Virus record (IMG/VR): IMGVR_UViG_3300036944_000990
Location: 62,001 to 126,000 of that record
DNA from: a virus
Direction: 5' to 3' (one strand)
Length of the DNA stretch: 64,000 nt
This document shows positions 431-61,015 of the stretch, one piece after another. Positions within the stretch are counted from its first letter, which is position 1. The number at the start of each line of letters is the position of its first letter. The notes beneath the pieces are model-generated. The model saw only the letters and a program-made list of their open reading frames with translations. It was not told where the DNA came from and ran no database searches. The position numbers and the translations under genes are program-made.

Positions 431-988
431 TTAGGCGACCAATCCTTTCAAATAGTTGATAAACACCGGCTTGTCAGCCAACTCTGGCAACTTATGCTTC
501 AGCAGGTGTTGACCAAACAACCGCTCCTTAAACAGGCGCTCGGCTTGTCGCACTACTTCGTTGGGCGTACCCACCTCGTGCTGACCCAGCGTGACGACGA
601 TGTACTCGTCATCCAGCACAGTGCAGCTATAACATAGTGGCGCACCCTCCACGAAATTGCGGCCGATCAGATGCTCCAACGGATTGAACTGTTGGGTCTG
701 AGCAGGGTTGTTAACCTCAGTGGCAGGATTGAGCTTCATTTCCAGATAGCTCATATACGAACTGACTCGTGCATCCTGAAGGGCCAGAGCCTGTTCAGTG
801 ATCTCGTAACAGCCCGTATAGACGGCACCAGAGACGTGTAGCGGCCACGCATTAACCATGGCGTAAACCGATACATCTTCAGCTGATGTTATAGACAGAA
901 CTTTTTTAACGTCGGTGACAGCAGACAACGGAAGCCCATGGGCTGCCAGGGTTTGCTCCAGCCACCGAGGAACAATGATCAACTTCAT
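431..988 (-). CDS. Conserved-type phage protein of unknown function (185 aa)
   Basis: Complete frame from ATG at 988, preceded by AGGAG. No family is recognised. The protein is soluble-looking, with no signal peptide or membrane segment, and has three cysteines (residues 60, 118, 121). It is divergently placed from the helicase gene with only 21 bases between the two start codons; both ribosome-binding sites sit on the palindrome TCCTAGGA. It could be co-expressed with helicase, but the sequence gives no function. Confidence 0.65.
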   Translation of the reverse strand: MKLIIVPRWLEQTLAAHGLPLSAVTDVKKVLSITSAEDVSVYAMVNAWPLHVSGAVYTGCYEITEQALALQDARVSSYMSYLEMKLNPATEVNNPAQTQQFNPLEHLIGRNFVEGAPLCYSCTVLDDEYIVVTLGQHEVGTPNEVVRQAERLFKERLFGQHLLKHKLPELADKPVFINYLKGLVA

Positions 989-1009
989 GTTTTACTCCTA
1001 GGAAAGACA
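989..1009. promoter_or_regulatory. Back-to-back ribosome-binding sites on one palindrome
   Basis: The 21 bases between two divergent start codons contain TCCTAGGA (996-1003). Read rightwards it gives AGGAAAG before the helicase ATG at 1010; read leftwards it gives AGGAG before the ATG at 988. There is no room for two promoters here, so at least one transcript must begin inside a neighbouring gene. The same layout recurs at 47149-47174. Confidence 0.6.
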
Positions 1010-2542
1010 ATGGACTTCAATATTTTGCTGGTTCAGGTGATTACCCTTTTGTATCGGGAAAGTCAGCTGGACAACCGGACGAGTAACTCTGCCGAATTGG
1101 CGAATACCGTCGTAGGTACCATCAAGCTTCCTGACACCACCGTAGAGATGGATCGTAGTCGCGATACCTTGGTCTCTCTGCGCAGCACAGCCTTGTGGAT
1201 GATCGGCAACCCGCCGACACAGGACTACGATCGCGGAATGCTGCTTCAAAGGATACGTGTAAACGTTGGTGATGACGAGTATCTCTACCAAGCTGTGGAG
1301 ATGGCCACACAAGACCTTCCTGACATCGGTGCTGTTAAGAAGGCAGTGCTCGAATACCGTGCTTCGCTGAACTCGTATGTCAACCTGGCAGCGGTTGAGG
1401 AAATCCTCAAGAACAACTACCACAAGCTTGCTTTTCATCGCGGTGCCATTGGACGAGACTTCGTAGGCGAGATTGTCACGGCCCTCGAACCTTACCAAGC
1501 CGGTACAGGTGCTATTGCTAACCCTGCCATCGTTGGTGAAGCCGACCTTGATGACATGGAGAAGGTACTGTCTCTGTTGGAACAGTCGCGTGATGAACTG
1601 TCCAACGAAGGTATCCTCAAAACCGGTTGGCAAGCGATCAACCGGATGTTTGGTGATCAGGACGGTGCACGGCGCGGTGAGCAGATTCTGGTAGGTGCAC
1701 TCCAGCACAACTACAAAACAGGTTTTACCCTGAACCTGTTTAAGCACTTCTGTATCTACAATAAACCGTACATGCGTGACCCTTCCAAGAAACCGATGGG
1801 TGTGCACATCTCGGCTGAGAACAACCTCAACGACAACATCATGCAGCTCTACGTCTCGCTTCGTGAGAACGAAACCAAAGAGCCGGTGGTGTTGCGTGAG
1901 GTGGATATCGACTATGCCTCCAAGTACGTTAAGGAAAAGCTCCAGGAGACGGGTTACTCCATCCGGATGCTTCGGGTAGACCCCAGCCTTTTCACGTACC
2001 GGGACTACATGGACTTGATCACTCGCTACGAGTCCGAAGGCTACGAAATCCACTTCTGTGTGTTCGACTACCTGAACATGATCAACAAGAAGGGTTGTCA
2101 GCAAGGCCCGCACGGTTTTGAAACACGTGATCTGTTCCGGAGGATGCGTAACTTCAATACCCCACGAGGCATCACCTATATCACACCACACCAGTTGTCG
2201 ACTCAAGCCAAAGAACTCGTACGTTCCAACATCGAGAACTTTGTCCAAGAGATTGCCAACAAAGGTTACTACGACTCCTGCCGGACGATCGACCAAGAAG
2301 TGGATATGGAGATTGCGATCCACATCGAGAAGATGAATGGTAAGAGCTACCTGACTGTACAGCGAGGTAAGCACAGAAAGTTGGGGGTGACTAAGAACGA
2401 ACACCTTTACACTGTACTTAAGTTTGAACCTGTAGGGGGAGGAATACCCGACGACATTAATGGACCCGATATGTCTCTAAGAGCAGTTGGCGGAAGCGCC
2501 GTATCTTCAAGCGAACAGACTGACACTTGGTGGGCTAACTAA
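1010..2542 (+). CDS. Replicative DNA helicase, DnaB/SF4-like
   Basis: The ATG at 1010 (after AGGAAAG) is preferred over the longer upstream frame, which would overlap the divergent gene; the product is 510 residues. The C-terminal half is a RecA-fold helicase domain. Residues 229-237 (GALQHNYKT) sit at the Walker A position, residues 350-354 (CVFDY) at Walker B, and a later ITPHQLS stretch matches the DnaB motif that normally reads ITxxQLNR. The N-terminal half is helical and probably contacts primase or drives oligomerisation. Its role would be unwinding at the phage replication fork. The Walker A glycine before Lys is replaced by Tyr (NYKT in place of xGKT), which is odd. A strong terminator follows directly. 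Confidence 0.8.
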   Translation: MDFNILLVQVITLLYRESQLDNRTSNSAELANTVVGTIKLPDTTVEMDRSRDTLVSLRSTALWMIGNPPTQDYDRGMLLQRIRVNVGDDEYLYQAVEMATQDLPDIGAVKKAVLEYRASLNSYVNLAAVEEILKNNYHKLAFHRGAIGRDFVGEIVTALEPYQAGTGAIANPAIVGEADLDDMEKVLSLLEQSRDELSNEGILKTGWQAINRMFGDQDGARRGEQILVGALQHNYKTGFTLNLFKHFCIYNKPYMRDPSKKPMGVHISAENNLNDNIMQLYVSLRENETKEPVVLREVDIDYASKYVKEKLQETGYSIRMLRVDPSLFTYRDYMDLITRYESEGYEIHFCVFDYLNMINKKGCQQGPHGFETRDLFRRMRNFNTPRGITYITPHQLSTQAKELVRSNIENFVQEIANKGYYDSCRTIDQEVDMEIAIHIEKMNGKSYLTVQRGKHRKLGVTKNEHLYTVLKFEPVGGGIPDDINGPDMSLRAVGGSAVSSSEQTDTWWAN

Positions 2543-2555
2543 AGTCGGCATAAAC

Positions 2556-2592
2556 GAGGTCTTCCCCTTCGGGGGAAGCCTCACCCTTTTAT
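2556..2592 (+). terminator. Intrinsic terminator after helicase
   Basis: GAGG-t-CTTCCCC, loop TTCG, then GGGGAAG-CCTC, followed by acccttttatg. The stem is 11 bp with a UUCG tetraloop, 14 bases after the helicase stop. Confidence 0.8.
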
Positions 2593-2625
2593 GACCTCTG
2601 TATTCTAGGCGGCATAAAAGTTATT

Positions 2626-2868
2626 CCGACCACTAAGCCTACGGGTGCACTCCGCGCTTAGTGGTCGGTCTAACCCCGTCACCTAACAACACCCGCGCAC
2701 AAAAGCTGGGTATAGGCTTGACGGCTGCTCACTGACTTGACGGGTCAGAAGCGTTCTCGTTCGTCCCCTGAGTGTCAATTCAGGGCACACGTTAAGCGCT
2801 CTTAGGCGCTGAAAGGGCTTTCGTAACCCTCACCACCTGCACGATGAGTCAGTGATGGAGCGTATCTT
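2626..2868 (+). ncRNA. Structured RNA candidate, upstream part of the gene-free island
   Basis: No convincing reading frame lies here. A perfect 13-bp inverted repeat occurs at 2626-2638 / 2656-2668 (CCGACCACTAAGC with its complement). Further on, TCACTGACT (2729-2737) pairs perfectly with AGTCAGTGA (2847-2855) and encloses three local hairpins: CCCTGA/TCAGGG (2766-2771 / 2780-2785), AGCGC/GCGCT (2795-2799 / 2806-2810) and AGGG/CCCT (2814-2817 / 2827-2830). A closing stem around several hairpins is the layout of a multi-branched RNA. The strand is assumed to be plus because flanking transcription is plus; pairing alone does not prove it. This may be one domain of a longer RNA reaching to about 3515. 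Confidence 0.45.
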
Positions 2869-2916
2869 TAACACTCATTAAAAACCCCACAAAAGTAATT
2901 TTTTACAGAATTGGGT

Positions 2917-2930
2917 AAAAGTATACTTTT
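2917..2930. promoter_or_regulatory. AT-rich 14-bp palindrome, possible promoter or operator
   Basis: AAAAGTATACTTTT is a perfect palindrome within an AT-rich stretch (2870-2935), separating the two structured parts of the island. It could hold the start of transcription of the downstream RNA or bind a dimeric regulator. It does not match the TATATTAC promoters elsewhere in the window. Confidence 0.25.
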
Positions 2931-2940
2931 TTTGACCATT

Positions 2941-3515
2941 AGTTTGAGAGTAATGTACTCTCTTCACTTAAGGTACCCCCAGTACCATAACCTAATCAAG
3001 CTTCGTGCTTGCGTATCGGACTAACCACTGTGAATAATCACAACGTCCTGAACGGGTGTGACTGTCGCCAGCAGTCACCAAAGACCCCGTTTGAAACTGG
3101 TTTAGCTCGTAACACCGTAACACCCTTCACTGTCGCTGATCGTCAGCAAACCTCTCACGAGGGTTTTCTCAGTGTCGCGTTGTTCCTCTTGATCGGCGAT
3201 CTTTCTAATAGAACCGTTCAGTGTGGGAAAACTGCAATTCATCGCGGTTTGGTAACTTTGTTGTTTAAGACAAAGCCTCTCTTTAAAGTTCTCTCCAACC
3301 AGAACTTTAGTCGGGTTTTTAAAAGTGTTCAGTTGGGCGTTGGCCGCAAGTCGCGTGTACTCTCTACACCTATTGTCGCAGCGTTCTACGCAGGTTCTTA
3401 TTGTGAATACCTCACAACGAGTACCAACCGGTAACGATAGCGCCCCTGCCACAGGGCCACCCTTAGGAGGACTCCCGTGTAGGGAGCCTCCAAGGGATCG
3501 TTATGCCGCTTATTT
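2941..3515 (+). ncRNA. Large structured RNA candidate (about 575 nt)
   Basis: Short perfect helices follow one another through the whole stretch: 2946-2952/2956-2962, 2972-2976/2982-2986, 2997-3001/3007-3011, 3029-3033/3038-3042, 3060-3064/3072-3076, 3135-3139/3143-3147, 3256-3261/3270-3275, 3285-3291/3302-3308, 3355-3359/3365-3369 and 3401-3405/3413-3417. The 3' end forms a clear three-way junction: AACGAT (3433-3438) with ATCGTT (3497-3502) encloses CCCTG/CAGGG (3444-3448/3452-3456) and a 15-bp hairpin (3460-3476/3482-3496, two bulged A). It ends in TTATGCCGCTTATTTT, like other terminators in the window. Frames that span it lack start signals. Large ornate phage RNAs such as GOLLD and ROOL are the nearest concept; no identity with them was established. 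Confidence 0.5.
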
Positions 3516-3896
3516 TCCAAAGCCTTTTATGCCGGCAGAGCTAAAGAGCCGTTTGGTACTGTAGTAACCAAAAGCTCGACCACTGTACCCGTGGCTTTTT
3601 GGCAGTGAGACTTCCACCACCATCAGTCCTTGATCGTCAAAACGACGTTCAAGCATCTCCCCTAAGCTGACAATGAAGTCGACTTCGCGGTGTTTGAGTT
3701 CAGAGAACAGGCTGTCACTGACATACAAGCAAAAGCGTTGGCGGTAGTATTGACTGTCATTCTTCACCCGGTAGGTGACATAACCACTACAGCTCTTCTC
3801 AATGTCATCCTCAATATCAGCGATGGGCATGAAAATCGTGTTAGGTAATACTTGAATAACATCGCCGTTCTCCACCATAGCGTCCAATGTAATCAT
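3510..3896 (-). CDS. Unknown protein (128 aa)
   Basis: Frame from ATG at 3896 to a stop just inside the RNA island's 3' edge. It begins MITLDAMVENGDV and is rich in beta-forming residues with a Tyr-rich C-terminus; no family recognised. It is last in the minus-strand run that starts near 9366, 35 bases downstream of the DUF1353-like gene. No membrane segment or metal motif is visible. Confidence 0.6.
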   Translation of the reverse strand: MITLDAMVENGDVIQVLPNTIFMPIADIEDDIEKSCSGYVTYRVKNDSQYYRQRFCLYVSDSLFSELKHREVDFIVSLGEMLERRFDDQGLMVVEVSLPKSHGYSGRAFGYYSTKRLFSSAGIKGFGK

Positions 3897-9419: not shown

Positions 9420-9450
9420 GGATGATATAGGTTTGAAAATATTTAGGTTG
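9420..9450 (-). promoter_or_regulatory. Early-type promoter (TATATTAC-like) for the 8500-9366 gene
   Basis: Read leftwards: AATATTTTCAAACCTATATCATCC. The block TCAAACCTATAT matches the promoter at 61000 (TTGAAACCTATATTACCC), and the T-A-T-A-T core matches those at 43040 and 59333. One base of the TATATTAC core differs (C in place of T). Confidence 0.5.
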
Positions 9451-51647: not shown

Positions 51648-51690
51648 CGGCATACAGGGAGGCCGAAGCCTCCCTGTACTTTTATGCCGC
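51648..51690. terminator. Bidirectional terminator with GCGGCAT...ATGCCGC flanks
   Basis: TACAGGGAGGC-CGAA-GCCTCCCTGTA (51653-51678), flanked by aaaaggcggca on the left and cttttatgccgc on the right, so stem and tails together are almost palindromic over 43 bases. It serves the plus-strand block and the minus-strand 51695 gene. Confidence 0.85.
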
Positions 51691-54909: not shown

Positions 54910-56961
54910 ATGTCGCTGCCCGTACCTAGCGAGAATATTAAAGGCATTGAATGTAAACACGCGGTTTACACACTGCCGAATGACGATGGTGATGGGGATG
55001 CCCTGATCGTCAAAGAAGTCATTCACACCAAAGACGGTCAATTGATCCCGAACCTCAAGATCATCGAAAACTACAAGCGCGATTTTTTCTATGCGCGTGA
55101 AGGTCAACGTAACTATACAGAAAAGAAGACTCAAGAAAAAATTAATAACCTGCAACGTTACACCTGCACCCAACGTAACCTGCTCAGACAGATTGCGCGG
55201 GCTAAAGGGGTGGGTACTTTGCGTGGGGGTTTGCGTCAGATTGCACGCGACCCTTATTTGTACGGGTGTGACATCACCACACCCACGCTCCTTAAACGTG
55301 AATACCAACTGCGTTCTCCAGATTGCTTGTCCCCCAATGGCGTAGCGGTATTCGACATCGAGACGGATGTTGTCCACGGTACTGAACAACCCATCCTGAT
55401 GGCCTTGACGTTTAAGGACAAAGTCTACCTGGCTGCGACCAAGTTCTTTGTAGGTCAAGACGTTCGCTTCTTGGAAAAGCTTAACAAAGCCATTGAAAAG
55501 TACTTGGAGAAGTACACTAAAGAGCGCAACATTACCTACGAACTGGAGATCGTTGAGACACCCGGTGAAGGCATTCGGCGTTGCTTTGCCAAAGCCCACG
55601 AATGGAAACCTGAATTCGTCACCATCTGGAACATCGACTTCGATATCCCCAAATGCGTCAAGCAATTGGAAGCTGAAGGAATTGATCCAGCTCAAGTTTT
55701 CAGCGATCCATCGGTTCCCGAGCGCTATAAGTTCTTCCGCTACAAGCAGGGCAACGCTACTAAGAAAACCGCTTCGGGTCGAATCGATTCGATTCACCCA
55801 GCCGAACGGTGGCACGTAGCCGAATGTCCAGCGACGTTCTTTCTGATCGACAGCATGTGTGTGTACAAGCGTATTCGAATGGCTAAGCAAAACCTGCCTT
55901 CGTACAGCTTGGACTACGTAATGAAGGAGGAGTTGTCGGGGCTTGGTAAGCTTAAGTTCGAAGAGGCCGACGAATATGCAGGGTTGGCATGGCACGTGTT
56001 CATGCAGACCTATTACAAAGTCGAATATGCGGTCTACAACATCTTCGACTGTATCGGTGTAGAACTGTTGGATGAGAAGACCAAAGACTTGCAGCTGGTT
56101 ATCAGTACCCAGTCGCGGGCTTCGGAATACACCATCTACAATTCGCAACCTCGTCGTTTGGTGGATGACTTCTATTTCTTCTGTCGTGACCGAGGCTATA
56201 TCCTAGGTTCGTGTAGCAACGAAATGGTCCATGAATTGGACGCTTACGTTGTTGGCATGAATGGACACATCGTGACCTTACCCTCTCACCAGACAGTGGA
56301 TAACGGCGTCCGCGCTATTAAAGAACTGCCTGATGTAAGGACCTACATTCGTCGTCACGTAGCCGACTTGGATTAATTAAAAGTCCCTTCAGACTGGAAG
56401 GTCTGAATGTAAACTCTTCTAATTGCTGGAAACCCCTGAGAGCTGTTCCACCACTGCGAGGCGAAAGCCAAAGCCACGGTTTGAAAACGGAACGGATTGG
56501 GCAACCGTGGGTCCTAAGGACCCCTTTAGCAGCCAAGCTCCTCTATGCGAAAGCAGTGGAGAAGGTTCAACGACTATCCCGCAAGGGAGTAGGGACAAGC
56601 GTCCCGAAACGGAGAGCACCCGACCCACCGTATGGTGAAGGGTGATGATATAGTCTCGGCATGTGGGGAAAGCCCACAGCAGTGCTTGATCGCACGGGGT
56701 AAAGTGTTGCGACTTAACCCGAAGATACCGATTGTCAGCACGTACCCGAACGTTCAGGTGATCCTGAATATCTCGCGTGAGACCACGCTTTACGAACTGT
56801 ACAAGATCAAAGGGTGTAATGAATACCAAATGAGAATGGCTGGGTATAACCTGACAGGCGGTCACGTGAATGCGGTAGAAATTGCAGTCGACATCATGAA
56901 AGCCCCGAGCTTTGATCGGATGCTGGCAGAGTTCCTTATGGACCATCCAGACGCAGCATAA
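54910..56961 (+). CDS. Family B DNA polymerase, exonuclease plus motif A; join(54910..56373, 56731..56961)
   Basis: After removal of the intron the product is 564 residues. Exonuclease motifs: VFDIET (Asp149, Glu151), WNIDFD (Asn241, Asp245) and YNIFD (Tyr376, Asp380). Polymerase motif A is restored only by splicing: ADLD-IVSTYPN, with catalytic Asp488 directly before the splice. The C-terminus then stops near residue 564, with no motif B or C (YxDTD), so the rest of the catalytic core must be in another gene. Without splicing translation ends at the TAA right after Asp488. Function: replication and proofreading of the phage genome. ATG 54910; TTGGAG about ten bases before. Confidence 0.85.
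56374..56730 (+). ncRNA. Group I intron in polB
   Basis: 357 nt, no open frame, so no homing endonuclease. The 5' end TAATTAAAAGTCC resembles the start of the T4 td intron (TAATTGAGGCC); P1 pairs exon GGAT with intron GTCC (56383-56386), keeping the U-G pair at the splice site. Core pieces: TGCTGGAAACCCCTGAGAG, CAGCCAAGCTCC, and P7 from GACTA (56572-56576) with TAGTC (56651-56655), followed by TCGGCATG. It ends in G at 56730. The joined exons restore an intact motif A (D-IVSTYPN). Subgroup IA is likely. It should be self-splicing. Confidence 0.88.
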
Positions 56962-60989: not shown

Positions 60990-61015
60990 ATGGGTAATAT
61001 AGGTTTCAAATACTT
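60990..61015 (-). promoter_or_regulatory. Early promoter (TATATTAC) for the 60477 gene
   Basis: Read leftwards: AAAAAGTATTTGAAACCTAT then ATTACCCATAGG; core 60994-61001. Differs from others mainly in the flanks. Confidence 0.6.

Follow-up and report, generated by a model that had tools for sequence, protein, structure and literature searches.

Only a small number of noncoding RNAs have, to our knowledge, been described in jumbo phages. Among the large RNAs described in phages, GOLLD is a structured RNA of phages and prophages that carries no protein, and ROOL is a large phage RNA with a complex secondary structure; the functions of both are unknown (PMC12286853). In the jumbo phage phiKZ, noncoding RNAs of approximately 100 nt, from the 3′ untranslated region (UTR) of PHIKZ298, and approximately 180 nt, from the 5′ UTR of p40, have been demonstrated by Grad-seq and Northern blotting, both being short two-hairpin UTR fragments (PMC8545117). 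This article is focused on a noncoding island in a 64-kb stretch of DNA, referred to as the window, from a virus record of 131.5 kb. With a probability of approximately 0.7, the island is interpreted from its sequence as a locus for two folded, noncoding RNAs on opposite strands in the genome of a phiKZ-like jumbo phage.

Features shared with GOLLD are a large structured RNA of phage origin and the absence of a protein; the island differs from it in the lack of a covariance-model match at an E-value of 10 and in its proposed division into two shorter RNAs on opposite strands. GOLLD is often located near tRNA genes, whereas such a neighborhood is absent at the island, no tRNA having been found by ARAGORN over the 64-kb window. 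ROOL is similar as a large phage RNA with a complex fold and differs in that there is no match at an E-value of 10 and no tRNA neighborhood at the island, the RNAs of which would be approximately 280 and 565 nt long. The phiKZ RNAs are likewise noncoding and come from a jumbo phage related to this one; compared with their published description, the island RNAs are longer and multibranched and occupy a locus of their own. Among 4227 Rfam families, none matched the island at the gathering score, including OLE as well as GOLLD and ROOL, to neither of which the first-pass annotation had matched it; at E ≤ 10 with permissive filters, only a micro-RNA model appeared, far below its cut-off. The island RNAs and the sister-clade RNA described below are outside every Rfam family.

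Locus and Genome Setting

The noncoding gap spans 2543–3509 (967 nt) and contains no supported gene. The first-pass annotation had noted a gap of approximately 970 bases without a supported protein, which is borne out between a gene for a DnaB-like helicase (938–2542, plus strand) and an open reading frame (ORF) at 3510–3896 (minus strand), although its bounds of 2626–3515 required correction. The helicase is assigned to phrog_3213 and has its nearest relatives in phages such as Xanthomonas LucasX and Erwinia SNUABM_54, with more distant ones in Noxifer, Psa21, and 201phi2-1; on this basis, the phage is called phiKZ-like. Where the helicase gene ends, a hairpin (2547–2594) flanked by GGCATAAA and CCTTTTATG is separate from both RNAs. 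The convergent gene at 3510–3896 (gene 3510), the function of which is unassigned, has a homolog (41–46% identity) in all seven sister-clade contigs that reach this position, and its dN/dS is 0 among the close relatives of the window and about 0.06–0.13 in the sister clade. Structural modeling of its protein reached a pLDDT of 60, a low confidence, and the model matched no known fold.

The RNAs of the window are held by three genomes only, i.e., the window and two close relatives, L001 and L002, which are 95–97% identical to it in DNA sequence; within the island, identity is 91.6% for L001 and 97% for L002. Blastn of the island against the phage collection returned no match beyond short, chance-level ones, and the same was true for plasmids. 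When the leftward RNA and the 3′ part of the rightward RNA were modeled and 40 jumbo-phage records were searched with these models, the three genomes were recovered and otherwise only weak terminator-like matches.

Elsewhere in the window, a full-length group I intron (RF00028, 61 bits) is located at 56364–56679 (plus strand). A plus-strand ORF (54910–56376) ends just inside it and another begins at 56632, and the intron may therefore interrupt a plus-strand gene. Furthermore, early promoters of the phiKZ type, consisting of an A-rich stretch followed by TATATTAC and then by a CTAGGTGAATAGG-like motif, are found at 61001, 59337, and 43044 (−), and weaker ones at 9429 and 35391 (−).

Folding and Strand-Specific Conservation of Pairing

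Compared with 20 dinucleotide shuffles, folding of the whole stretch yielded z-scores of −9.8 on the plus strand and −8.3 on the minus strand. In 120-nt windows, stability clearly exceeded that of shuffles only at about 2540–2720 and 3380–3560. The earlier description of the island as hairpin-packed thus applies mainly to its two ends. Since the excess stability is confined to the ends, thermodynamics alone is weak evidence for the middle, and the case for the middle therefore rests on conserved pairing.

To assess conserved pairing, a fold was computed for each strand from the window sequence only, and the pairs broken by L001 were counted, in comparison with an equal number of changes placed at random; the tests draw on few sequences, and the null models were home-made and are approximate. 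A G-U pair on one strand is an A-C mismatch on the other. Pairing that is kept on one strand only, where G-U is tolerated and A-C is not, therefore points to RNA rather than to DNA hairpins and identifies the strand. Judged from the pattern of substitutions, base pairing is under selection in two adjacent domains, on the minus strand at 2607–2885 and on the plus strand at 2945–3509.

The left domain carries 35 substitutions and one 27-nt deletion in L001, the differences of which lie mostly in one block at about 2680–2805. The test of this domain reflects essentially L001, L002 being nearly identical there. In the minus-strand minimum free energy (MFE) fold, 74 of 87 pairs are kept, 12 are gapped, and one is broken, compared with 13.7 broken pairs expected (P < 0.0002); six pairs are compensated on both sides (0.8 expected, P = 0.0002). 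Double changes in the helices include one from C-G to G-U at 2806/2799 and two in the 2791–2758 stem. By contrast, the plus-strand fold has 10 broken pairs (P = 0.08) and two compensated ones. With slightly shifted bounds, 2 pairs are broken on the minus strand and 12 on the plus strand, and with L001 as the reference, 7 and 13; across versions, the plus-strand fold of 2600–2882 loses 10–13 pairs in L001, no better than chance. In the right domain, the 24 substitutions of L001 break only one of 174 pairs of the plus-strand MFE fold (9.2 expected; 0 of 3000 randomizations as low), as against 12 of 188 pairs of the minus-strand fold (9.8 expected). The comparison of the plus-strand fold with L002 is weaker (4 broken pairs, 8.0 expected, P = 0.05). 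No double-sided changes were found in the right domain, where support consists of the lack of broken pairs only.

The test was repeated with base-pair probabilities and the variable part only. The left domain was again kept as a minus-strand fold, and in the right domain all six plus-strand comparisons gave P ≤ 0.012 and none of the minus-strand comparisons was significant. Three-sequence RNAalifold energies likewise favor the minus strand on the left (z of −10.0, versus −6.2 for plus) and the plus strand on the right (−5.1, versus −3.5 for minus). All versions of the strand and shuffle tests that were tried are reported here, with P values uncorrected for the number of tests, and the outcome for the three genomes was the same in each.

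Architecture of the Two Predicted RNAs

The leftward RNA is predicted at 2607–2885 on the minus strand, its 5′ end being approximate. Its core (2836–2607) has a short closing stem (2836–2832/2613–2609) around at least five hairpins, followed by the tail CUUUUAUGCCGCCU. Four hairpins lie at 2831–2813, 2810–2795, 2791–2758, and 2752–2727, and the arm at 2724–2676 is shortened in L001, the deletion of which mainly takes out this inner arm. The terminal long hairpin (2619–2675) has 22 pairs with a 13-bp perfect core (2626–2638/2656–2668), an inverted repeat which the first-pass annotation had reported and which is identical in both relatives; together with the U-rich tail after it, this hairpin forms a terminator-like end of the putative leftward RNA. 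A further element of that annotation, a 9-bp closing stem (2729–2737/2847–2855), is present in the window, where it is a competing pairing, but one of its arms is altered in L001 and the stem is broken.

The rightward RNA is predicted at 2945–3509 on the plus strand, again with an approximate 5′ end, and has hairpins from 2946 onward. It ends in a three-way junction (3433–3509) composed of a closing stem (AACGAT/ATCGTT), a hairpin at 3444–3456, and a 15-bp hairpin at 3460–3496, followed by GTTATGCCGC. This stretch carries no substitution among the three genomes, and the junction with its long hairpin, previously noted at 3433–3502, is identical in both relatives. Between the two RNAs lies an AT-rich center (2880–2945), the proposed point of divergence.

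Many gene ends in the window have a hairpin set between a GGCATA motif and a matching TATGCC tail. Such modules occur at convergent gene ends, e.g., at 51649–51688, 41567, 36027, and 13663, where they are apparently bidirectional terminators, and the same tail is found in LucasX; the 14-nt tail of the leftward RNA recurs there in identical form after a hairpin, at the predicted terminator behind the major capsid gene. Matches of the leftward-RNA model in LucasX were rejected as homologs because they look like shared terminators. Both island RNAs are predicted to end in terminator-like hairpins with this gene-end tail, which we read as terminators. Neither terminators nor sigma-70 promoters were detected in a simple scan of 2400–3700. 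A scan of the island for the early-promoter motif gave no significant match, its best being a weak one at 2902 (minus strand; score −2.1, ranked 32nd among about 128,000 positions), and no recognizable promoter was found at the center.

A single plus-strand RNA of approximately 0.9 kb, with its ends paired (GGCGGCATAAAAG with TTATGCCGC), would account for the z-score of −9.8 of the whole plus-strand fold and for the ability of the ends to pair. However, the plus-strand fold of 2600–2882 is not kept in L001 whereas the minus-strand fold is, and what pairs at the ends is the motif commonly used by this phage at gene ends, which recurs at many convergent junctions, for which reason the paired ends were rejected as a closing helix; this explanation is considered unlikely. 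Thus, the proposal of a large structured phage RNA stands as regards a locus with conserved pairing and with neither a supported protein nor an Rfam match, but not as regards a single RNA, and the anticipated plus-strand transcript of 0.6–0.9 kb is not supported by pair conservation in the left third, where the pattern is that of an RNA from the other strand.

Coding Potential

The longest frame in the island (3009–3434, plus strand, 141 codons) is open in all three genomes. Its dN/dS is 0.8–1.9, whereas gene 3510 has a value of 0 in these genomes; it has no synonymous excess over the other five frames, and its score in a home-made codon measure is marginal (8.8 for 141 codons). In the sister clade, all eight members have a plus-strand frame of 122–168 stop-free codons, in which changes are about even over codon positions, dN/dS is about 0.5–1.3, and no synonymous excess was seen in the close pairs tested. 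Searches with the open frames of the island returned neither a Pfam nor a PHROG family, and in a profile comparison the open frames of one clade did not match those of the other. By these sequence measures, the frame at 3009–3434 shows no sign of coding, and the search among relatives for a conserved protein, the recovery of which would have spoken against an RNA, yielded none.

A fast-evolving small protein encoded by these frames, with or without an RNA role, would explain why a long plus-strand frame is open in every member of both clades and why L020, L116, L119, and L120 have a common C-terminal peptide (LSQPVF.WPMGIKAQM). It is nevertheless improbable given the even distribution of changes and the lack of synonymous excess, of a database family, and of similarity between the clades. 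Furthermore, the conserved ATG opens no more than 27–28 codons in three members, and the common peptide overlaps covarying helices, which could alone conserve it. The unexplained open frame in all members nonetheless counts against the interpretation of the island as two RNAs.

A Predicted Structured RNA in a Sister Clade

A search with a helicase alignment retrieved L016–L020, the helicases of which are 63–66% identical, and L116, L119, and L120 were obtained by searching with the gene that comes next, resulting in a sister clade of eight sequences; a scan of genome contigs with the helicase alignment gave no match. In seven of these phages, a noncoding region of approximately 610 nt adjoins the homolog of gene 3510; the contig of L020 ends before this homolog, which is why seven contigs show the RNA and the gene together. 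Between L016 and L017, the region diverges by 15%, far below the synonymous divergence of the neighboring gene (1.1), and its open frame has a dN/dS near 1 in L016–L020.

In the 3′ part of the sister RNA, 17 of 66 pairs are changed on both sides among the eight sequences and 96.6% of cells are paired, and none of 500 shuffles equaled these sequences in pairs, cells, or covariation score, with the reservation that this very alignment was the source of the structure, which biases the result in its favor. In a fairer check, shuffled columns were refolded each time with the terminator excluded; the plus strand gave 25 compensated pairs (shuffle mean 10.5, maximum 18) and the minus strand, about equally, 27 (mean 12.6, maximum 22). 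Assignment to the plus strand therefore rests on the base-pair-probability test, which preferred plus, most but not all minus comparisons being weaker. This test and the eight-sequence covariation, the basis of the sister-clade claim, were run after the single-MFE version. A plus-strand RNA of approximately 610 nt in the sister clade is thus a prediction supported by covariation. Covariation had been named by the first-pass annotation as a check of its RNA; it is present in the left domain and in the sister RNA, and absent from the right domain.

The sister RNA resembles the rightward RNA in its position beside the homolog of gene 3510, in being noncoding, in its plus-strand structure, and in a 3′ end where a closing stem encloses two hairpins, one short and one long, with the tail ATGCCG. 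Its covariance model recovers all eight members and not the island of the window; the model of its 3′ part, run against 2500–3600 with filters off, gave only short low-score fragments, and alignment of the island with the sister RNA yielded z-scores of about 1–3 only, so that homology is not detectable. In contrast to the window, no left-hand RNA was found in the sister clade, where leftward genes are located instead, preceded in L016–L020 by the early-promoter motif. Possibly, and on clearly less than even odds, the rightward and sister RNAs are deeply diverged members of one class with a shared function in infection, the leftward RNA being a partner gained in the lineage of the window.

Pattern matches to the sister RNA in the unrelated contigs L094, L096, and L097 were rejected because they lie inside ORFs. 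Separately, intergenic gaps of approximately 400–540 nt were observed in L030 (2551–2962), L049 (2710–3105), L052 (2616–3030), L058 (2551–2962), L071 (2607–3044), and L074 (1368–1907), several of them lying about equally far from the helicase and perhaps following the capsid gene; their folding z-scores are −6.8 to −12.4 (8 shuffles each), and they possibly represent further structured RNA.

The sister clade also bears on the explanation that the plus-strand part is a processed 3′ UTR, i.e., a stable fragment of a helicase mRNA that reads through its terminator. The island directly follows the helicase gene, and UTR-derived noncoding RNAs such as the approximately 100-nt PHIKZ298 RNA are known in phiKZ (PMC8545117). 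However, the left domain is conserved on the opposite strand, and several leftward genes intervene between the helicase and the RNA in the sister clade, making it unlikely that the sister RNA is a helicase 3′ UTR; we accord this origin little probability. A DNA-level element, such as a replication origin or a recombination or packaging site with its inverted repeats extruded as cruciforms, has the least to recommend it despite the AT-rich center, the inverted repeats, and the adjoining helicase gene, because pair conservation is strand-specific in both domains, which is not predicted for DNA hairpins, and the cumulative GC skew has no clear turn at the island.

Proposed Function and Perspective

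In the preferred interpretation of two RNAs on opposite strands, both would be transcribed divergently from the AT-rich center (2880–2945), and transcription would terminate at 2607 and 3509, in hairpins that carry tails of the CTTTTATGCC type. The folded RNAs might then act in trans by binding a host or phage protein or a ribonucleoprotein. A role as a leader or riboswitch is unlikely because neither RNA has a gene after it in its own direction, and a simple antisense role is disfavored because the conserved feature is intramolecular folding, with stems that change in a compensated fashion. A trans-acting, protein-binding role is favored over both in our analysis, as a tentative and still doubtful proposal made purely by analogy.

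Three RNA folds, of roughly 280, 565, and 610 nt, are supported by the comparative analysis at a genome position that is conserved, and these folds are concrete targets for probes, antisense oligomers, and pull-downs in addressing the roles of large phage RNAs. The strand assignment alters which transcript is to be sought. If the rightward and sister RNAs do belong together, a class of large phage RNA would exist at a fixed site beside gene 3510 in some phiKZ-like phages.
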